Assembly (NCBI GenBank): GCA_030145625.1
Contig: JAQYVF010000001.1
Location: 62,001 to 126,000 of the forward strand
DNA from: Desulfocapsa sp.
GTDB lineage: Bacteria; Desulfobacterota; Desulfobulbia; Desulfobulbales; Desulfocapsaceae
Direction of reading: 5' to 3'
DNA length: 64,000 nt
Within the stretch, counting starts at the first letter, position 1. Every line of letters begins with the position of its first letter. The notes under the pieces are model-generated. The model saw only the letters and a program-made list of their open reading frames with translations. It was not told where the DNA came from and made no database searches. Positions 26,253-37,516 of this stretch are shown here, piece by piece. A program made the translations under genes and the position numbers.

Positions 26253-26927
26253 ATGAATTACGAGGCAAAACTTTCCGATATCATCGCCAGTCTTCCTGAA
26301 ATTGAAGGAGGTTTTCTTTTTGCACCTGAAAAGGGGGTTTATGCAAATCAGGCAACAGAAATTAGCAGCAATGATGACCTGTTACAGATTGCACTGAAGT
26401 TTTCCAAGATCTTTTCCATGCTAACCGTTCATTTTAACGATACGGGCAACTTCCGGGTAACATTCAAAGATCTTGTTCTTTTTGGTATGGTTCTTGACCA
26501 AGGACAATGGCTGTTTTTATTTCATCGCCCTTCTCTTTCTCCCAGTATGGTCAACATGACAGTTCAATTGGCCTTGAATATTGTAACGGATGAAACAGAA
26601 CAAAAGGATAGCCAGGAAGTCACTTCTCCCCCGGTAGAATCATCCCCCCCCCCTGTTCCCGATGAAAACACCACCCTGGAGACACTCCTCGCTCCCGAAT
26701 CTGATTTGAGCCGCCCCCTGAATAGTATCAAAGATGAACTCTCCAAATATATTGGTCCGGTGGCAGAATTGATCTTTGAGGAACTCGCAGAAGAATGGGG
26801 GACAAACTTTTCTCCAACCCTTAAAACCCTTCCCGAGCTCATTCGTCTCCTTGAAGAAGAAATTGACAATGACGATGACCGTAAAACATTTAAAAAGGCT
26901 ACGGATGCCTTTTTAGTAGAGGAGTAA
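26253..26927 (+). CDS. Roadblock/LC7-like protein with Pro-rich linker and C-terminal helical domain
   Basis: Unknown protein, 224 aa. Residues about 1-115 have the alternating pattern of a Roadblock/LC7 domain (LSDIIASLPEIEGGFLFAPEKGVYA, then LVLFGMVLDQGQWLFLFH), the fold of MglB-type regulators of small GTPases. Residues about 120-150 are an acidic and proline-rich linker that includes a ten-C tract at 26644-26653. Residues about 160-222 (YIGPVAELIFEELAEEW and following helices) resemble the short IGP-A helical domain that occurs with roadblock and kinase proteins (DUF8082-like, from memory). A second roadblock-like gene follows after 6 bp. No signal peptide. Confidence 0.7.
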   Translation: MNYEAKLSDIIASLPEIEGGFLFAPEKGVYANQATEISSNDDLLQIALKFSKIFSMLTVHFNDTGNFRVTFKDLVLFGMVLDQGQWLFLFHRPSLSPSMVNMTVQLALNIVTDETEQKDSQEVTSPPVESSPPPVPDENTTLETLLAPESDLSRPLNSIKDELSKYIGPVAELIFEELAEEWGTNFSPTLKTLPELIRLLEEEIDNDDDRKTFKKATDAFLVEE

Positions 26928-26933
26928 CAATTA

Positions 26934-27266
26934 ATGGCAACTGCAAAAGATTTTTCCAGGCTAGGTACCATTGAAGGGGTTGCCCAGTTTATTCTGGTTC
27001 GTAATGACGGATATGTGGTGAGTGAAAATTTTGATGACGCCGTTTCTCTTTCTTCAACTATAGTTACCAGTGGAAAATACTGTGACAGTTTTTCAGAGAA
27101 TCTTTCTGGCAGACGTTATATTCATCTCTGTATAGAACGAAGTTCAGGAGGGAATATCCTTGTTTTTTCTCTTGGACGATACTATCTCGGAATTATTAAA
27201 CACCCGGACATCGACCCACAAGTCCTGGCTGACTCGATTCTGGCTTTCCTGAAAGGGCTTTCCTGA
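26934..27266 (+). CDS. Roadblock/LC7-like domain protein
   Basis: Single-domain protein, 110 aa, with a helix-strand pattern typical of Roadblock/LC7: an N-terminal helix, then GVAQFILVRNDGYVVSEN (residues about 15-32), RYIHLCIERSSGGNILVFSLGRYYLGII (about 60-88) and a final helix. It probably dimerises with itself or with the product of the gene 6 bp upstream. MglB-like GTPase-activating partners are the best-known comparison, but no small GTPase gene lies in this window. nnr follows after 29 bp, so the three genes may form one transcript. Confidence 0.7.
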   Translation: MATAKDFSRLGTIEGVAQFILVRNDGYVVSENFDDAVSLSSTIVTSGKYCDSFSENLSGRRYIHLCIERSSGGNILVFSLGRYYLGIIKHPDIDPQVLADSILAFLKGLS

Positions 27267-27295: not shown

Positions 27296-28903
27296 ATGAA
27301 ATTGCCAAGCGCTGCAGAAATGCGCAGTCTCGATCAATGCGCCATAAACGAATATAACATTCCCGGAATTGTCCTTATGGAAAATGCAGGACTGGGGACA
27401 GTCCGGATGATGGAAGAAGAATTGGGACCTGCCGCAAACTCTTTTGCCCTGCTTTTCATTGGTCCAGGCAATAACGGTGGAGATGGTCTTGTCATTGGAC
27501 GACATCTGCATCAACGCGGATGTCAGCCGATTTTCTTTTTCCTTGTCAACCCGGACCAACTTAAAGGAGATGCTGCAGCCAATATGGACATTGTCCGCAA
27601 ACTGCGGCTCCCCTTTCATGTGATCGACAGCGAGGCGCGGGTACAGACTCTTCCTGTCCTCTATAAACAGTTTGTCAGCCGTGGTCAGCCCTGTTATGCA
27701 ATTATCGATGCCCTTTTCGGCACCGGCCTTATTCGTTCAGTGAGCAATCAATTTTTAGAAATTATTAATCTCATCAACTATTCTGATCTGGTTCGAGGAA
27801 TTCCTGTGATCGCGGTTGATATCGCATCAGGTATGGATTCTGACAATGGCAAAGTCCACGGGAGCTGTATCCATGCCGATCATACTGCTACCTACGGATG
27901 TCCAAAACCAGGGCATGTTCTCCATCATGGCCCTGAAAGCACCGGTAAACTCCATGTCATTGACATCGGCATTCCTCCGGAAGCATTAAATCGTGCCAGA
28001 ATCACCACAGAACTACTTGATCGAAACACCACGACCTCACTTGTTTCCCCCTTGAGGCGTATCGACAATGTACATAAGGGGAGCCATGGACACCTTGCAG
28101 TCCTGGCTGGTTCCATCGGAAAAACCGGCGCAGCGACACTTGCAGTAAAAGGTGCCTTGCGAACAGGGAGTGGCCTCGTTAGTCTCTTTACCACAAAATC
28201 GATGAATCCCATTTTTGAGACTCTGCTTGTTGAGGCAATGACTGTTCCCCTCCCCTCTTCTACTGATTTTCTTGGAATCAATGATCTTCTTGCCATTGAA
28301 CATGGTTTGAGAGGAAAGAAGGCTGTCATCCTTGGTCCTGGATTAGGTACAGAAGAGGCCACAGCAGATCTTGTCCTCAAGCTGTATCAGACTGTTGAAT
28401 TACCTATGGTGCTCGATGCTGACGCCTTAAATATCCTGGCAAAAAACCGTGACACGTTAGGTGTGGCGGCAGGCCCCAGAATATTTACTCCACATCCCGG
28501 AGAAATAGCAAGGCTGCTTGGTTGTACTATTAATAACGTTCAGGAAAATCGAATGCGTGCCGCCCAGGAAGCATGTAGAATTTACAGCAAAGAAAGAAAC
28601 GATTGCATCATGATACTGAAAGGTGCCGGTACCATCATTACCTCATCAGGCGGCAACACCTCTATCAACACAAGTGGGAATCCAGGAATGGCAACCGGAG
28701 GAATGGGAGATGTCTTAACCGGAATTATCGGAGGCCTTCTCTGCCAGAATGTCGGCTGTGAAGAGGCTGCGGCAGCCGGAGTCTTTCTCCATGGCATGGC
28801 TGGAGATTGTCTCTACGAACAATACGGTTTCGGCTACACCGCAACTGAACTTAGTGACAAGCTACCGGAATGCATACAGAGTCTTCTCCACTCTGTATCA
28901 TAA
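27296..28903 (+). CDS. nnr: Bifunctional NAD(P)H-hydrate epimerase / ADP-dependent NAD(P)H-hydrate dehydratase
   Basis: Repairs damaged NAD(P)HX. The N-terminal epimerase interconverts R and S forms, and the C-terminal kinase-like domain dehydrates S-NAD(P)HX using ADP. The 535-aa length is that of the fused Nnr. The YjeF_N half (about 1-220) contains IVLMENAG, FIGPGNNGGDGLVIGRHL and IDALFGTGL. The dehydratase half (about 230-530) contains HKGSHGHLAVLAGSIGKTGAA, ILGPGLG, LDADALNIL, FTPHPGEIARL and GNPGMATGGMGDVLTGI, all intact. Confidence 0.95.
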   Translation: MKLPSAAEMRSLDQCAINEYNIPGIVLMENAGLGTVRMMEEELGPAANSFALLFIGPGNNGGDGLVIGRHLHQRGCQPIFFFLVNPDQLKGDAAANMDIVRKLRLPFHVIDSEARVQTLPVLYKQFVSRGQPCYAIIDALFGTGLIRSVSNQFLEIINLINYSDLVRGIPVIAVDIASGMDSDNGKVHGSCIHADHTATYGCPKPGHVLHHGPESTGKLHVIDIGIPPEALNRARITTELLDRNTTTSLVSPLRRIDNVHKGSHGHLAVLAGSIGKTGAATLAVKGALRTGSGLVSLFTTKSMNPIFETLLVEAMTVPLPSSTDFLGINDLLAIEHGLRGKKAVILGPGLGTEEATADLVLKLYQTVELPMVLDADALNILAKNRDTLGVAAGPRIFTPHPGEIARLLGCTINNVQENRMRAAQEACRIYSKERNDCIMILKGAGTIITSSGGNTSINTSGNPGMATGGMGDVLTGIIGGLLCQNVGCEEAAAAGVFLHGMAGDCLYEQYGFGYTATELSDKLPECIQSLLHSVS

Positions 28904-30578: not shown

Positions 30579-30971
30579 TTAACTTCTTATAAGTTTCTGC
30601 ACATAGGTGTTCAGAAAATGATAATCCTGTTCATAAATATTAAGGAATTGGACTCCAATAACATAAGAATTGGCTGTTCCATTTCTTTTACACCACATCA
30701 CTTTCCCCATCACCTTAAGCAGATTATTGTGGCCAGTTTGTTCTGAAGAAATGGCGTTATGCAATGGAATACGTAGTCGAAGAAGAGCATCGGGCAGATA
30801 TCTCCTTTCCGCATAGAAAGAAAGCCCACCACCACTGATATCTCTACCCCGGCATGGCAGAAGAGGAAAATCACCACATGAATCTTCCCCGTTCAGGAGG
30901 CAGACTTCGAGAGTTATATCTAAATGGGCACGGGAATGTTCTCGTCTTTCTACTCCACCACCGCTTTTCAT
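30579..30971 (-). CDS. PilZ-domain protein
   Basis: Putative c-di-GMP effector, about 130 aa from the ATG at 30971, which has GGGGAG seven bases upstream. An earlier in-frame ATG at 31004 would give 141 aa. It shows the PilZ signature: RREHSRAHLDITLEV near the N-terminus (RxxxR-type nucleotide-binding motif, with R-E-H-S-R) and DISGGGLSF (the D/NxSxxG motif) around residue 43, followed by the beta-barrel. It is immediately downstream of the CheB-like gene in the same orientation, which links c-di-GMP sensing to that receiver protein. It ends an apparent leftward block. Confidence 0.85.
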   Translation of the reverse strand: MKSGGGVERREHSRAHLDITLEVCLLNGEDSCGDFPLLPCRGRDISGGGLSFYAERRYLPDALLRLRIPLHNAISSEQTGHNNLLKVMGKVMWCKRNGTANSYVIGVQFLNIYEQDYHFLNTYVQKLIRS

Positions 30972-31009
30972 TTCCTGACTCCCCATAAATACTATTATAT
31001 GCAACTATG

Positions 31010-32218
31010 TCAGGCAGTAGTCACATTTTCTTGATGACTTTCATGAATCTCCCGGATCCGATCAACAACTCCGATTTCATCCAGAGTACCTAACAGATTG
31101 TATTTAGCAAAAGGTCCACTGGTCATGGTCTTCTGCAGACAATGGGCTGGATTTAAAACGCAGCAACTTCCTTTATTCTTCAGGATCTCTCCTAGCCCCT
31201 TGCTTCCATCGTCATCAGCACCAGACAAGAGAACGCCTGCTACTCGATTCTTGAAAGTTTTACTAGCAGAAATCATCAAATTATCGATGCTTCCAGTATT
31301 CGCAGACATCGGATTTGCCTCCATTTGCAGAGTATAGTTCCCACTATATGGAGAAAATTCTACATGTTCATTGCCGGTAAAGATGTAGCAACCGCCTCCT
31401 TCCAGAGTTAATCCATCCTGGGCCAGAGAAACTTTGAAATCACTGATGGCATCAAGATATTTCATAAAGGATTCTACGTGTTCCACCTCATCTCGAATTA
31501 CAACAAGTAATGCCCCACCTATTTCTGGATTTAACTCGGGTATAATTTTCAAGAGATTGGCATATCCGCCTTCCCCACATCCTATCACTGTGACAAAGTT
31601 CACCCTTCTGAATCGCTTTTCACCTACCAGGGAGATATCATCACCGCAGTTATTACATTTTACACTAGCACCTGTCTGTATCGGAGTCTGGATAATATGC
31701 CTCGCTCCGCAGTCCTCACAAAAAACGACTTTTAATTTTGTTTTCGTCAAGACACCGGCTTCAGAGCCCTGTTGCATGGGATCAATGGAGTTTACAGTTG
31801 TCTGGGCAGCAGCAAAGATTTTATCAGCAACAAATTGGCCTTGGTCGGCCATATCCATTCCTTTGAAAAATCTATTTTTACTGATAAAATCCACAGCACC
31901 ATATTTTAACGCATCAAAGCAACGGGCCGAGCCCTTTTTACTGAGGCTGGAGAGCATAATTGTGGGTGTGGGAGTGTGAATCATAAGGTGTTGTAAAGTA
32001 GTCATCCCATCCATGGTCGGCATTTCCACGTCCAGCAAGATAACATCAGGGGTAACCTGAAGGATTATACCAAGGGCTTCTATACCATTAGCAGCCTCAC
32101 CCACGATTTTTATATCATTCCTTTCAGATAGGGTCTCGCGCAGAACTTTCCTCAACACCCAGGAATCATCAACAATGAGAAGTTTTACCGGAGAATCAGA
32201 GTAATTATATTGAGTCAT
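31010..32218 (-). CDS. CheB-like receiver protein with inserted zinc ribbon and degenerate methylesterase domain
   Basis: CheB normally demethylates chemoreceptors. Here the receiver (residues about 10-130) is intact, with Asp63 in ILLDVEMPTMDG. Residues 167-191 form a zinc ribbon (CEDC...CNNC) not usual in CheB. The methylesterase-like domain follows, but where active enzymes read IGASTGG this protein has IGCGEGG at 212-218 (Ser replaced by Gly215), and where they have QHM it has IRD at 241-243 (His replaced by Arg242). Only the third triad residue is kept, as Asp337 in DDDGSKG. It is therefore probably not an esterase but a phospho-regulated scaffold. No cheR, cheA or mcp gene is nearby; a PilZ gene follows. 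Confidence 0.85.
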   Translation of the reverse strand: MTQYNYSDSPVKLLIVDDSWVLRKVLRETLSERNDIKIVGEAANGIEALGIILQVTPDVILLDVEMPTMDGMTTLQHLMIHTPTPTIMLSSLSKKGSARCFDALKYGAVDFISKNRFFKGMDMADQGQFVADKIFAAAQTTVNSIDPMQQGSEAGVLTKTKLKVVFCEDCGARHIIQTPIQTGASVKCNNCGDDISLVGEKRFRRVNFVTVIGCGEGGYANLLKIIPELNPEIGGALLVVIRDEVEHVESFMKYLDAISDFKVSLAQDGLTLEGGGCYIFTGNEHVEFSPYSGNYTLQMEANPMSANTGSIDNLMISASKTFKNRVAGVLLSGADDDGSKGLGEILKNKGSCCVLNPAHCLQKTMTSGPFAKYNLLGTLDEIGVVDRIREIHESHQENVTTA

Positions 32219-32388: not shown

Positions 32389-33030
32389 TTAACGAACAGA
32401 ATAGATTTCATGTTGTTGTATATATTCACAAACTCCTTCAGGAAGATGTTTGTCCACAGAAAAGCCTTTTGCCACCCGTTTACGTATTTCCGAAGAAGAA
32501 ACAGACGGCGGTGTAACCGAGGAACAGTAAATCCATTTTGGGGAAGTTCTACTGTACCATGCATCTTTTTTTTGCTGATAACCAAGCTGCTCAAAAAGCT
32601 TGTATAACTTCTCGTTATCACATCCCTTACGAGAAAAAACAATGAAATGGATTAAACGTAAAAGTTCCGGATATTCTTTCCATGAAAGGATATCAAGAAA
32701 GGTGTCTGCTCCTGTAATAAAGAAAAACTCCACTAAATGGCCAGAGTGATCCAAAAGATAACGGAGTGTGTCTATGGTATAGGAGGGTGTGGGCAGAAGG
32801 TGCTCAAGAGTAGAAAGAGTTAAGGCCGTCCTGTTACTCACAGCAATTTCAATCATTGCAACTCTATCAGAGAAGCTACTGATTACTTCTTTTTTGTGCG
32901 GTGGAACAGCAGCGGGCAGGAGCAGAATCTCATCAAGATTGTAAAGCTTTCCCGCTGCTTCAGCAAGTGCGAGGTGACCATTGTGGATAGGATCAAAGGT
33001 TCCGCCTAAGATGCCTGTTTTACGTATCAA
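32389..33030 (-). CDS. nadD: Nicotinate-nucleotide adenylyltransferase
   Basis: Joins nicotinate mononucleotide and ATP to give deamido-NAD. The 213-aa protein begins with the nucleotidyltransferase signature GILGGTFDPIHNGHLALAE (about residues 6-24) and has LLPAAVPPHKK, FITGADTF and SSSEIRKRVAKG near the C-terminus (the ISSTxxR-type motif). It overlaps the end of proA by four bases, so translation is coupled in the obg-proB-proA-nadD unit. Confidence 0.95.
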   Translation of the reverse strand: MIRKTGILGGTFDPIHNGHLALAEAAGKLYNLDEILLLPAAVPPHKKEVISSFSDRVAMIEIAVSNRTALTLSTLEHLLPTPSYTIDTLRYLLDHSGHLVEFFFITGADTFLDILSWKEYPELLRLIHFIVFSRKGCDNEKLYKLFEQLGYQQKKDAWYSRTSPKWIYCSSVTPPSVSSSEIRKRVAKGFSVDKHLPEGVCEYIQQHEIYSVR

Positions 33031-34295
33031 CTCCTGACCTGTCCCTGTCCGTACACAATAAATTTCCTGGTGGTCAGTTCCTCCAGACCCATAGGGCCAT
33101 AGGCATGCAGTTTGGTTGTACTGATGCCGATCTCAGCCCCAAGGCCCAGTTGCCCACCATCGTTAAAACGGGTTGAGGTATTGATCATTACCGCCGAGGC
33201 ATCGACCTCGGCAAGAAATCTCTGGGCACTGGTATAATTTTCAGTAATTATGTTCTCGGTATGTTGAGAGCCGTATTGCGCTATATAATCCAAGGCTTCA
33301 TCCATATCATCCACTACACGTACACAGAGAATGAGATCAAGAAATTCAGTGCCCCAATCACTGTCCATGGCTGGTGTTATTTGAGGTGCAATGCGCACAG
33401 ACTCTTTACACCCAAGCAGACGCACACCTGCTTTACTGAGACTTTCAACAAGTGACGGCAGGTAAGACGCAGCAATATCTTTGTGGATGAGGAGTCCTTC
33501 AAGGGCATTACATACACCGGGACGCTGGGCCTTTGAATTAAGAATAATCGGTGTTGCCTTTTCCAGATCTGCCTCCCGATCAACATAAATATGACACACT
33601 CCCTTATAGTGTTTCAACACAGGGATACGAGAAGTCTCTGAGACAAAACGAATAAGCCCCTCACCTCCCCTGGGGATAATAAGATCCAGATATTCTTCCT
33701 GGTTGAGCATAATATTGACAGCTTCACGATCAATCATTGGAATAACCTGGATGGCTTCTGCAGAAACGCCCTGACTCTTGAGAGCTTCTTGGAGAACAGA
33801 AGCAAGAGCCCTGTTGGAATGGATGGCTTCGGAACCTCCCCTGAGAAGGATGGCATTTCCAGCTTTAAGACAGAGGGCAGCGGCATCCACTGTTACATTG
33901 GGCCTGGACTCATATATCATTCCAATCACTCCCAGAGGCACACGCATACGTCCAACCAGGAGTCCATTGGGTCTTTTTACCATTTTGGCTACTGCTCCAA
34001 CAGGATCCGGTAAAGCAGCCACTTCTCGCAAACCAGCCATCATAGAAGCTATAACTTTATCAGAAAGCTCGAGGCGGTCAAGCATAGCAGCAGATAAGCC
34101 TTTCTCTTTCCCGGCAGTAAGATCCTTGGCATTTTCTTTCTGGATATATTGTCGTTTAGCATCAATGACATCAGCCATATGAAGAAGAACGTTGTTTTTG
34201 GCTTCAGTGGATAACGTTACCAAAGACCGTGCAGCCTTTTTTGCCTGTTTAGCCATTTGCTGGATATCGTGAGCAATATTTTCTGAGTGACTCAT
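33027..34295 (-). CDS. proA: Gamma-glutamyl phosphate reductase
   Basis: NADPH-dependent reduction of glutamyl 5-phosphate to the semialdehyde in proline synthesis. The 422-aa length is standard. It has RMRVPLGVIGMIYESRPNVTVDA (about residues 115-137), LLRGGSEAIHSN (about 150) and the active-site Cys in RPGVCNALEGLL (about 265). The C-terminal GPMGLEELTTRKFIVYGQGQVR is typical. It lies 144 bp after proB and overlaps nadD by four bases. Confidence 0.96.
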   Translation of the reverse strand: MSHSENIAHDIQQMAKQAKKAARSLVTLSTEAKNNVLLHMADVIDAKRQYIQKENAKDLTAGKEKGLSAAMLDRLELSDKVIASMMAGLREVAALPDPVGAVAKMVKRPNGLLVGRMRVPLGVIGMIYESRPNVTVDAAALCLKAGNAILLRGGSEAIHSNRALASVLQEALKSQGVSAEAIQVIPMIDREAVNIMLNQEEYLDLIIPRGGEGLIRFVSETSRIPVLKHYKGVCHIYVDREADLEKATPIILNSKAQRPGVCNALEGLLIHKDIAASYLPSLVESLSKAGVRLLGCKESVRIAPQITPAMDSDWGTEFLDLILCVRVVDDMDEALDYIAQYGSQHTENIITENYTSAQRFLAEVDASAVMINTSTRFNDGGQLGLGAEIGISTTKLHAYGPMGLEELTTRKFIVYGQGQVRS

Positions 34296-34439
34296 AGCTT
34301 TCCCCTTTTATTCTTTCAGTGCCGCGCAAATAACGATCTGATCTTTTTATAATAAAAAAACACACTACCTTGCCGTAAACAACCCTATGGTCAAGCCCTT
34401 ATCTTTTCCACAAAAGATACTTAAAAGAGTTCATCAGGA

Positions 34440-35618
34440 TCAGAGTAAAACAAGATTGTCGCGATGAATGACTTCGTCGGAATCTTTTGTTCCCAGGAGA
34501 TCGGCAATTTCATGGGAACGATGCTGTTTAATTCTGTCAACATCAATGGAATTATAATTGATTAATCCTGCGGCAATGGATTTGCCATTTTGATCAAGAC
34601 AATGAACAGCATCACCAATGCCGAACGTACCACGTACCTCTACAATACCAGAGGGTAAAAGGCTGCGTCCCTGGTTGGTGATGGCGGAACAGGCACCGCT
34701 ATCAAGGACAAGATATCCTTTAGGTTGAAGAACATGAGCAATCCACTGTTTTCGCCGTGTGATCTTTCCTTGAGCAGGGAGGAAAAAAGTCCCAACCATC
34801 TCTCCACTGAAGAGTTGCTGGAGAATCCCTTTTTCCTTACCAGGTCCTATAAACGAACAGCCGCCTCCCACAGAAACCATTTTTGCTGCCTTAATTTTTG
34901 ACTGCATCCCACCAGTCCCCAGTGCACTTTTGACATTCCCGGCCATGGCTTCTATCTCTTTTGTTACCTCTGACACTGTATACATGGGCCGGGCATCAGG
35001 ATTTGTCTGAGGATTGCCGGTATATAATCCAACCACATCAGTCAGACAGAGAAACATGTCGGCTTCTATGAGATTACTGATCAGGGCTGCCAAGGTATCA
35101 TTATCGCCAAAGCGAAGCTCTTCCACAGCAACAGTATCATTTTCGTTAAGAATGGGGATGGCATCATAACGAAACAGAGCAAGGATGGTATTGCGTACAC
35201 GAAGATAACGATCTCTATCAGCCAGGTCTGCATGGGTAAGTAGCACCTGGGAAACCGTTTGTCCAAAATGGGCAAAGGCTGTTTCATAAGATTGCATTAA
35301 GATCGGCTGACCAATTGCAGCAAGGGCCTGTTTTTCATTGAGACCCAGGTCAACGCCATCAGGAATCACAACTTTACGTTTACCTGCTGCCACCGCTCCG
35401 GAACTGACCAGAATCACTTCCCTTCCTGTTTTTCTAAGAAAACTGAGTTCTTTAGCAATGTTATCCATGATCGAACAGTTGATACCATTTTCATCGGTGA
35501 GTACAGCTGAGCCAACCTTCACCACAACACGTTTAGCATTGTCAAAGTAGGTCTGACGGAAATAAAGACCATCTTCTCTACTGATTTCAATGAGATCCTT
35601 ACCCATAATCTTACTCAC
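34440..35618 (-). CDS. proB: Glutamate 5-kinase with PUA domain
   Basis: First step of proline synthesis, phosphorylating glutamate. The 392-aa protein has an amino-acid kinase domain (VVKVGSAVLTDENG, VSSGAVAAG, LNENDTVAV, FGDNDTLAALIS, GTGGMQSKIKAA) and a C-terminal PUA domain (about residues 295-375). The N-terminus is about 25 residues longer than usual. Its start overlaps the obg stop by four bases. The family is feedback-inhibited by proline. Confidence 0.95.
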   Translation of the reverse strand: MSKIMGKDLIEISREDGLYFRQTYFDNAKRVVVKVGSAVLTDENGINCSIMDNIAKELSFLRKTGREVILVSSGAVAAGKRKVVIPDGVDLGLNEKQALAAIGQPILMQSYETAFAHFGQTVSQVLLTHADLADRDRYLRVRNTILALFRYDAIPILNENDTVAVEELRFGDNDTLAALISNLIEADMFLCLTDVVGLYTGNPQTNPDARPMYTVSEVTKEIEAMAGNVKSALGTGGMQSKIKAAKMVSVGGGCSFIGPGKEKGILQQLFSGEMVGTFFLPAQGKITRRKQWIAHVLQPKGYLVLDSGACSAITNQGRSLLPSGIVEVRGTFGIGDAVHCLDQNGKSIAAGLINYNSIDVDRIKQHRSHEIADLLGTKDSDEVIHRDNLVLL

Positions 35619-36688
35619 TCAATATCTGCGGAATCCTCTGTCGCATCTCTCAAAGAAGTTGTTTCCTCTTTGGTATTGGACTGAACAGCATTTACAGTAT
35701 TGTATGTTTCAAGAATATCTGCTATCCAGAATTTTATTTTATCGATGCCTTCTCCAGTAAGTCCGGCTATCGGCACAGTTTCGAATCCCATATCTGCAAA
35801 TTCACTCTGTAGTTGCTCAACCAGATCAGGGGTGGCTATATCGATCTTATTTAACACCAGCAGCCTTGTCTTACGTAGGAGTTCTTCTTTATAGCTTTGC
35901 AGTTCCTTTTCCACTACAAGAAAATCGTCCATGGCCTGGGCACTTGAAACATCTAGAACATGTAATAGAATTTTTGTTCGTTCTATATGACGAAGGAAGG
36001 TGAAACCCAACCCGATCCCTTCATGCGCCCCTTCAATAAGTCCAGGGATATCCGCGATTATACAAGATTCTTTGTGGGGCAGATGAAGAACACCCAACTG
36101 AGGCTCCAAGGTAGTAAACGGGTAACTGGCCACTTTGGGGTTAGCTGCTGAAAGCTTGGAAAGAAGAGTGGACTTTCCAGCATTGGGCAAACCAACCAGC
36201 CCCACATCGGCAATAAGTTTTAACTCAATACGCAGCCATCGCTCCTCACCTTCAACACCTTTGGTGGCAATGCGTGGTGTCCTGTTGGTGCCTGATGAAA
36301 AGTGACGGTTACCGAGCCCACCCTTTCCGCCCCTGGCAGCTATGAAACGATCACCTTCATTACAAAGATCAGCCAGCACTTCACCGGTTTCGATATCCTT
36401 GATAAGAGAACCAACCGGAACACTCATTAAGCAATCGCTTCCTTTCCGTCCGTGCATGTCTTTTCCCATGCCGGGACTGCCACTTTTTGCCTTAAAATGG
36501 GATCGATAACGAAAATCTATAAGTGAGTGCAGCCTGGAGGCACATTCGATGATGATGCTGCCACCATGCCCCCCATCACCTCCGTTTGGTCCTCCTCTGG
36601 GGACATATTTTTCTCTTCGAAAACTGACACAGCCTTTTCCACCATCTCCTGCCTTTACAAAGAATTTTGCTTCGTCTACAAATGCCAT
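35615..36688 (-). CDS. obg: Obg/CgtA GTPase
   Basis: Essential ribosome-associated GTPase involved in 50S assembly and stress responses. The 357-aa protein has the Gly-rich Obg fold (FVKAGDGGKGCVSFRREK...GGPNGGDGGHGG, about 11-44), then the G domain with G1 GLPNAGKSTLL (about 165), the DIPGLIEGAHEGIGLG switch II segment, and NKID (about 282). The C-terminal tail is short and acidic. Its position after rplU-rpmA is the classic arrangement, but a terminator after rpmA separates them here. A TATAAT-like hexamer lies at 36717-36722 on the minus strand. Confidence 0.95.
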   Translation of the reverse strand: MAFVDEAKFFVKAGDGGKGCVSFRREKYVPRGGPNGGDGGHGGSIIIECASRLHSLIDFRYRSHFKAKSGSPGMGKDMHGRKGSDCLMSVPVGSLIKDIETGEVLADLCNEGDRFIAARGGKGGLGNRHFSSGTNRTPRIATKGVEGEERWLRIELKLIADVGLVGLPNAGKSTLLSKLSAANPKVASYPFTTLEPQLGVLHLPHKESCIIADIPGLIEGAHEGIGLGFTFLRHIERTKILLHVLDVSSAQAMDDFLVVEKELQSYKEELLRKTRLLVLNKIDIATPDLVEQLQSEFADMGFETVPIAGLTGEGIDKIKFWIADILETYNTVNAVQSNTKEETTSLRDATEDSADIE

Positions 36689-36757
36689 AATGTTTACACC
36701 AATCCTTTTCTTGATTATTATATGATCTCAAAGGATTCGGAAGAGGATTGGAAAATG

Positions 36758-36798
36758 AAAAAAAAACTCGACCATCAATACTAGGGATTGAGGTCGAG
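36758..36798 (-). terminator. Terminator after rpmA
   Basis: On the minus strand CTCGACC and GGTCGAG form a stem, extended by TCAAT/ATTGA, around an apical loop, followed directly by nine T residues. It separates rplU-rpmA from obg, so obg is probably served by its own promoter or by read-through. Confidence 0.85.
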
Positions 36799-36872
36799 CA
36801 GATACCTGGTTCGCAATTAACCGCTCTACGCGGTTCCAGGGAAAAGATTGAGAGATTCCTTTCCACCCTTAC

Positions 36873-37130
36873 TTAGGCAGCAGGATAAACACTCACTCTT
36901 TTTTTCTTATGTCCAAAATCTTCGAAGGTCACTACACCGTCAACCTTAGCAAAAAGAGTATAATCTCTGCCGCAGCCAACATTGGTTCCTGGGTGAATCT
37001 TGGTACCGAGTTGTCTTACGATAATTGATCCGGCAGTGACATTCTCGCCGCCATAACGTTTTACGCCTCGTCTCTGTCCTTGACTATCGCGACCATTCCT
37101 TGAGCTACCGCCCGCTTTCTTATGTGCCAT
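36873..37130 (-). CDS. rpmA: Ribosomal protein bL27
   Basis: 50S subunit protein near the peptidyl-transferase centre. The 85-aa protein has the N-terminal [15 protein letters not shown], which reaches the P site, and [23 protein letters not shown]. It has no Firmicutes-type cleavable N-terminal extension. It follows rplU by 74 bp and is ended by a strong terminator. Confidence 0.97.
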
Positions 37131-37204
37131 TTCTTACTCCTTATCACCGAGTTCCATATGGATATCAGTGTATTTCTCAATCATTGTCCGTATGATAAAA
37201 AGGT

Positions 37205-37516
37205 TCAGGCGCTAATCTCTTGAATCTGAAGAGCGGTATAAAATTGACGATGCCCTTTTTTAAGCCTGTAGCCTTTACGCCTTTTCTTTTTAAAGATAAT
37301 AACTTTTTTTGCTTTGCCCTGCTCGGCGATGGTGGCAACAACCTTTGCATTTTCGACAACAGGGCGACCAATCTGGGTCTTCTCCCCATCGACAACCATC
37401 AGCACATCGGTCAGTTCAACAGTATCACCTACGTTGCCTTCAAGTTTCTCAACGCGTAACCGGTCACCATTCGTGACCTGATACTGTTTCCCGCCGGTTC
37501 TTACTATTGCATACAT
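37205..37516 (-). CDS. rplU: Ribosomal protein bL21
   Basis: 50S subunit protein binding 23S rRNA. The 103-aa length and the opening MYAIVRTGGKQYQV are invariant features. KRRKGYRLKKGHRQFYT closes the protein. First gene of the rplU-rpmA unit. About 195 bp of non-coding DNA lies upstream, but I do not recognise an L21 leader structure in it. Confidence 0.97.
   Translation of the reverse strand: MYAIVRTGGKQYQVTNGDRLRVEKLEGNVGDTVELTDVLMVVDGEKTQIGRPVVENAKVVATIAEQGKAKKVIIFKKKRRKGYRLKKGHRQFYTALQIQEISA

Follow-up and report, generated by a model that had tools for sequence, protein, structure and literature searches.

The window, that is, the whole 64,000-nucleotide stretch of Desulfocapsa sp. DNA analysed here, carries a gene with an ATG start codon for a CheB homologue, hereafter DCheB, in which a receiver, a putative zinc ribbon and a degenerate CheB methylesterase domain follow one another (Table 1). 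Pfam places the receiver at residues 14–115 (Response_reg, E 2.5e-20) and the methylesterase domain at residues 211–366 (CheB_methylest, E 1.8e-27), and the NCBIfam CheB models score below their cut-offs (NF001965, 207 bits against 293; NF009206, 174 against 342). No cognate kinase gene was seen adjacent to DCheB, and a promoter and terminator scan stayed near chance level.

Table 1. Features of the DCheB locus (positions in the window)
Feature	Position	Strand	Basis
DCheB CDS, 402 aa; receiver, putative zinc ribbon, degenerate CheB domain	31010..32218	-	ORF, Pfam, alignment
Receiver domain, residues 10-118; D17, D18, D63, S90 and K114 all there	31865..32191	-	Pfam Response_reg
Putative zinc ribbon, residues 162-196; C167/C170/C188/C191	31631..31735	-	Cys conservation, model, weak Pfam
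Degenerate CheB methylesterase domain, residues 207-402	31013..31600	-	Pfam, alignment, fold match
Codon 215, Gly at catalytic Ser position	31574..31576	-	Alignment
PilZ-domain gene, 5 bp downstream of DCheB; listed with a TTG start, true start uncertain	30579..31004	-	Pfam
nadD-like gene, upstream of DCheB, conserved neighbour family-wide	32389..33030	-	Synteny; name by sequence recognition
proA-proB-obgE-rpmA-rplU block, upstream of nadD	33027..37516	-	Synteny; names by sequence recognition

Catalytic residues, ribbon and predicted fold

In alignments with Salmonella CheB (1a2o) and with the CheBs of the family, the signature IGASTGG reads IGCGEGG in the window protein, which puts Gly215 in the place of the catalytic Ser, and the QHM segment reads IRD, with Arg242 in the place of the His. 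The third catalytic residue (Asp337) and the receiver Asp63 are present. These readings, including the intact receiver, had been made in the first-pass annotation, and both Pfam and the alignment agree with them. DCheB lacks the complete triad of active CheB (S164/H190/D286 in Salmonella numbering) and has its catalytic-domain fold and an N-terminal receiver with the D-D-D-S/T-K set; a receiver with a conserved phospho-acceptor Asp is joined to an output domain, as in response regulators.

Between the two domains lies the segment FCEDCG-x16-CNNCG. It shares the CxxC-x(n)-CxxC pattern with MJ0042-type ribbons (Zn_ribbon_4/5), and Zn_ribbon_4 gives weak scores for two relatives, L063 and L171. 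Unlike those ribbons, the window segment stays below the cut-off of every Pfam zinc-ribbon profile, Zn_ribbon_4 and MJ0042 included; the best similar matches are DUF5817 (14.8 bits, cut-off 31), zf-C2HC_3 (12.6, cut-off 24) and Zn_ribbon_RPAB4 (11.5, cut-off 24). The four-Cys ribbon recognized earlier nevertheless stands, since its Cys are invariant among the orthologues. In a structure model, four short strands (162–166, 173–177, 185–187 and 194–196) form at the ribbon, and together with the invariant Cys they predict two CxxC knuckles on short beta hairpins, the arrangement of structural zinc ribbons.

The model, proposed in the first-pass annotation, was built with AlphaFold on the window protein together with 38 related sequences and reaches a pLDDT of 86.8 and a pTM of 0.79. 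VIA-align ranks full-length CheB structures first: 6ymz aligns over 335 residues at Z 37.5 and rmsd 2.9, and 1a2o reaches Z 36.7. The structure 3sft, a CheB domain on its own, aligns over 188 residues (Z 27.0, rmsd 2.0). By prediction, the CheB fold of DCheB is intact and, because the match extends to full-length CheB, the packing of the receiver on the CheB domain is predicted as well.

Conservation and distribution in Desulfocapsaceae

With a cut-off of E <= 1e-30, a profile of ribbon plus CheB domain detected DCheB in 74 of the 93 genomes of the family, in 45 of the 54 good ones and in 16 of 18 genera; named loci among the matches belong to Desulfocapsa, Desulforhopalus, Desulfopila and Desulfosediminicola. 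Three of the 77 profile matches are not separate DCheB genes (two chemosensory-cluster relatives and one second fragment), and all three sit in genomes that also have a DCheB match. Many of the 19 genomes without a match are incomplete. The architecture of a receiver, a CxxC-CxxC ribbon and a degenerate CheB domain, for which a search had been suggested, thus recurs family-wide with Gly in the place of Ser, which argues against a chance arrangement in the window. In other families of the order, matches stayed at the level of ordinary CheB, with one outlier in a Desulfobulbaceae bin. This protein (L038, 9818-11026) is likely a distant DCheB: it has the receiver-ribbon-CheB layout outside the obgE-nadD block, a degenerate receiver in both its start and its residues, and Gly/Ser/Glu at the triad positions.

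For residue conservation we used 66 distinct DCheB proteins of Desulfocapsaceae, gathered by the ribbon motif FCE[DE]CG...CxxCG (three fetched loci failed this filter); counts for the CheB domain refer to 65 proteins, as a truncated one from G031 lacks this part. The four ribbon Cys are invariant in all 66, partly by construction because the motif served to collect the set, and they are also invariant in an independent alignment of 23 BLAST-type orthologues. The phospho-acceptor D63 is kept in 65 of 66 proteins, and D17, D18, D63, S90 and K114 each in 64–65. At the catalytic Ser position, every one of the 65 proteins has Gly, while the His is kept in 30 and was lost only in some lineages, and the third Asp is kept in 55. 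The joint loss of Ser and His expected from the window protein is therefore general for Ser and not for His.

Other signatures of active CheB are gone from DCheB as well, namely the T after Ser, the Q and M around His, P, IAPG and GMP; the CheB comparison set was picked for having the triad, and its 100% at the triad positions is by construction. Several residues are fixed instead (C277 in 64/65, C360 in 65/65, Y254 in 65/65, N221 in 63/65, and also Y278). The lost substrate-side signatures and the newly fixed N221, Y254, C277 and Y278 are, at the level of sequence, as expected of a new binding surface. Two of the fixed residues, Cys277 and Cys360, might also be taken for a relocated nucleophile of a working enzyme. 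We consider this very improbable and rejected it: C360 corresponds to a Cys in 59% of ordinary CheBs, C277 coexists with Ser in relatives and so did not replace it, and fewer than half of the orthologues keep the His, while the Asp is missing from some.

Against its two nearest relatives (G002 and G007), DCheB has a dN/dS of 0.03–0.04 in the receiver and 0.07–0.08 in the CheB domain, with dS of 1.1–1.6; farther pairs were mostly saturated and were left out. At such values the CheB domain is not decaying: judged from its residues, it is dead as a serine esterase yet under purifying selection. A decaying pseudogene, which the lost catalytic residues could suggest, has virtually no claim on our belief, given the occurrence in 74 genomes, the synteny and a dN/dS of about 0.06–0.08 against the two nearest relatives; conservation and dN/dS refute it.

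Two orthologues depart from the common pattern. That of G030 (L167) has lost D63 together with its acidic pair, and the phosphorylation switch is therefore not essential in every lineage. In the one-contig genome G031, the DCheB orthologue (L168, G031:C1, 6471-7109) ends after the ribbon and is followed by a UDG-like ORF. Since only receiver and ribbon are kept there, the CheB domain is dispensable in this lineage, and part of the output may reside in the ribbon. One may go further and regard the ribbon as the true output, binding nucleic acid or another conserved partner, with the CheB fold as a passive regulatory body. The invariance of the Cys and of FCE[DE]CG, the highest in the protein (66/66 in a set collected by this motif), would fit such a role, as would the G031 protein. 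We think it unlikely, because purifying selection on the CheB domain is strong elsewhere, the ribbon loops are variable and Pfam finds no DNA-binding domain in the window DCheB.

Gene neighbourhood and chemosensory gene content

The genes from proA to nadD, and also proB, obgE, rpmA and rplU, lie upstream of DCheB in almost every locus whose flank is long enough. Elsewhere in the window, two genes syntenic in the genus (26253-26927 and 26934-27266, forward strand) encode proteins of 224 and 110 aa with no Pfam family, the second roadblock/MglB-like by eye; they precede a gene at 27296 that is nnrD-like by sequence recognition.

Downstream, the PilZ gene of the window (PF07238, E 2.1e-13) follows on the same strand as DCheB, as had been noticed at the start, and its RREHSR (RxxxR) and DISGGG (DxSxxG) motifs predict a c-di-GMP receptor. 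Its adjacency to DCheB did not prove to be general. PilZ adjoins DCheB only in most members of the window genus (g1) and in the syntenic loci of g5; within g1 it is absent from L115, L121, L123 and L126 and reduced to a remnant in L113. Its position is occupied in other genera by a uracil-DNA glycosylase gene (PF03167 in L129, homologues elsewhere). The PilZ link is clade-specific, since it is confined to two related genera, and an exclusive pairing of DCheB with PilZ was rejected on account of the glycosylase gene. The connection to c-di-GMP signalling raised in the first-pass annotation is thus possible in g1 and g5 and is not general in the family.

A stronger form of this connection would have phosphorylated DCheB control the adjoining PilZ protein, as a c-di-GMP output pair. 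The close, co-directional spacing and the intact motifs in the window, the adjacency in most g1 and syntenic g5 loci, and the GGDEF proteins found in all seven of the receptor-less genomes described below agree with it. In addition, a chemosensory-cluster protein of the same family (L171:989-2752, reverse strand, 588 aa) fuses an N-terminal zinc ribbon, a receiver, a degenerate CheB domain with Gly/Glu/Ser at the triad and a C-terminal PilZ domain, and so parallels the DCheB and PilZ pair of the window. This fusion belongs to another CheB-like clade in the tree and was rejected as a direct relative of DCheB. Considering also the glycosylase gene in other genera and the g1 loci with no PilZ gene or only a remnant, we regard such a pair as rather unlikely.

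Profile searches of the contig that holds the window (C114) found no CheW, MCP or CheR domain and no second CheB domain, in agreement with the initial remark that chemotaxis genes are absent nearby. Elsewhere in the window genome there are chemosensory clusters, in which MCPs, CheW and two further CheB-domain proteins are encoded. Seven genomes with DCheB (G028, G029, G030, G381, G382, G384 and G401) gave no CheW and no MCPsignal match; they are 90–97% complete with at most 5% contamination, and control genomes in the same scans gave the expected results. DCheB is the sole CheB-domain protein in G029 and G030, and likewise in G001 and G016, which have no CheR. Active CheB works on MCPs together with CheR, CheA and CheW. 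The seven genomes keep DCheB although they have neither MCP nor CheW, and the reason for it there cannot be receptor demethylation, with or without catalysis.

These data also bear on whether DCheB still serves in chemosensory arrays, where, as a decoy or a regulator, it could compete with the true CheB for receptors or for phosphoryl groups from CheA. Its sister group lies in chemosensory clusters, and the window genome has both MCP/CheW clusters and other CheB-domain proteins. We nevertheless hold a role in arrays to be improbable: besides the seven receptor-less genomes, co-occurrence of DCheB and CheW is not significant among the 54 good genomes (38/7/6/3, Fisher p 0.34), and the family loci examined place DCheB in the obgE-nadD block, away from chemosensory genes.

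Origin and a phosphorylation-gated binding role

In a quick IQ-TREE phylogeny of receiver plus CheB domain, drawn with a midpoint root and with two long rows (L028 and L038) of uncertain placement, DCheB is a single clade of 33 rows (SH-aLRT 100). It joins (SH-aLRT 99) chemosensory-cluster CheB-like proteins, namely f56 L132–L134, L136, L170_592, L171_484, L063 and L036; the L063 locus lies beside CheW, a CheA and two more CheB-like genes. The state of the triad differs among these relatives. It is complete in L133, L134 and L136, and also in L075, which is outside the tree; Ser occurs without His in L132 and L036, His without Ser in L063 and L170_592, and neither in L171_484. Three relatives (L036, L063 and L075) have the ribbon at the N-terminus, and L075 consists of ribbon and CheB with no receiver. 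Because relatives with an N-terminal ribbon keep the triad partly or fully, its loss looks stepwise within a chemosensory CheB-like family, of which DCheB would be the offshoot that moved out of the chemosensory setting. That homologues of this kind might retain Ser and His had been raised as a refutation; the orthologues never have Ser, while these distant relatives keep some or all of the triad.

Several Desulfobacterota clusters or short stretches (L170, L171, L063, L172–L174, L139, L145 and L153, also L141 and L143) encode two to three CheB-like proteins from separate clades, nearly all with an incomplete Ser/His/Asp set; CheA, MCP or CheW neighbours are Pfam-confirmed for L063, L170 and L171 only, and the contig of L170 has no CheR match. 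The clusters of L170 and L171 also encode ParA/MinD-like ATPases with an N-terminal Zn_ribbon_4 (L170:8735-9658, forward; L171:5987-6943, reverse), adjoining genes for an NMT1-type substrate-binding protein and an ABC transporter.

DCheB shares the phospho-switch residues, the CheB fold and the domain arrangement with the CheB methylesterase/glutaminase (PF01339 plus PF00072; 1a2o, 6ymz). Unlike CheB, it has Gly for Ser in all members, has lost the His in about half and has no substrate-side motifs; it carries a linker ribbon, sits outside chemosensory clusters and is kept without MCP or CheW. The degenerate CheB-like proteins of Desulfobacterota clusters (L063, L036, L075, L132–L138, L170 and L171) are nearest to it in the tree and have signatures in common with it, such as the CY of the GxCY motif; in some, a ribbon stands at the N-terminus. 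They differ in having CheA/CheW or MCP genes alongside where checked, in an N-terminal ribbon or a DUF4388 domain instead of the linker ribbon, and in the several members that keep Ser, some with the full Ser, His and Asp. Two papers on pseudo-receivers and pseudoenzymes in signalling describe proteins that keep a signalling fold after losing catalytic residues (PMC12632262, PMC10211241); compared with a pseudo-receiver, DCheB is reversed, with an intact receiver and a dead output enzyme. Searches of the open-licence literature turned up no report of a zinc-ribbon CheB, and no title or abstract describing a degenerate or conserved pseudoenzyme CheB family. A survey of Geobacter chemotaxis gives cheB numbers in passages where the words "degenerate" and "zinc" are absent (PMC2577667), and the Desulfocapsa sulfexigens genome paper, in the part consulted, reports two CheB genes with no comment on their residues (PMC3739170).

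Taken together, a phosphorylation-controlled binding or scaffold role is the best reading of DCheB because the Ser is lost, the receiver and fold are kept, the gene is under purifying selection and it is present in genomes without chemoreceptors. DCheB is probably a pseudo-methylesterase response regulator in which phosphorylation-gated binding has taken the place of catalysis. The conversion of a chemotaxis enzyme into such a protein, as first suggested for the window gene, is supported on these points, and the loss of His and the PilZ neighbour are not general parts of it.

Under this binding role, a CheB-like ancestor in a chemosensory cluster would have lost its nucleophile (Ser to Gly), and a zinc ribbon, either gained or retained, would separate its receiver from the CheB domain; the gene would already have stood alone in the obgE-proBA-nadD block in the ancestor of Desulfocapsaceae. 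A histidine kinase, which would not be CheA in species without chemosensory proteins, may phosphorylate Asp63 and alter the packing of receiver and CheB fold, as in CheB. Ribbon and CheB fold would together form a binding surface that this change may expose or hide, and the outcome would be the capture or release of a partner protein in place of methyl ester cleavage; a candidate for this partner, or for a co-regulated effector, is the PilZ protein encoded in the same direction in g1 and g5. From zinc binding and phosphorylation by an orphan kinase to the conformational switch and the existence and identity of the partner, these steps are what we infer. On a wider scale, the CheB fold could serve as a general phosphorylation-gated binding output in Desulfobacterota clusters, with up to three old paralogue lines of broken triad, from which the DCheB line left, acquired its ribbon and came to act in a receptor-independent pathway beside core genes, with a PilZ link to c-di-GMP in two genera; we hold this to be nearly as plausible as its opposite.

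A conserved, selected and dead CheB in chemoreceptor-less genomes would mean that this fold is reusable as a non-enzymatic output of response regulators, and the relatives at each state of the triad (complete, Ser only, His only, neither) make the conversion directly testable. CheB is counted as a defining chemotaxis enzyme, and annotation tends to label such genes as methylesterases. The CheB counts used for inferring chemotaxis in sediment bacteria would need correction.
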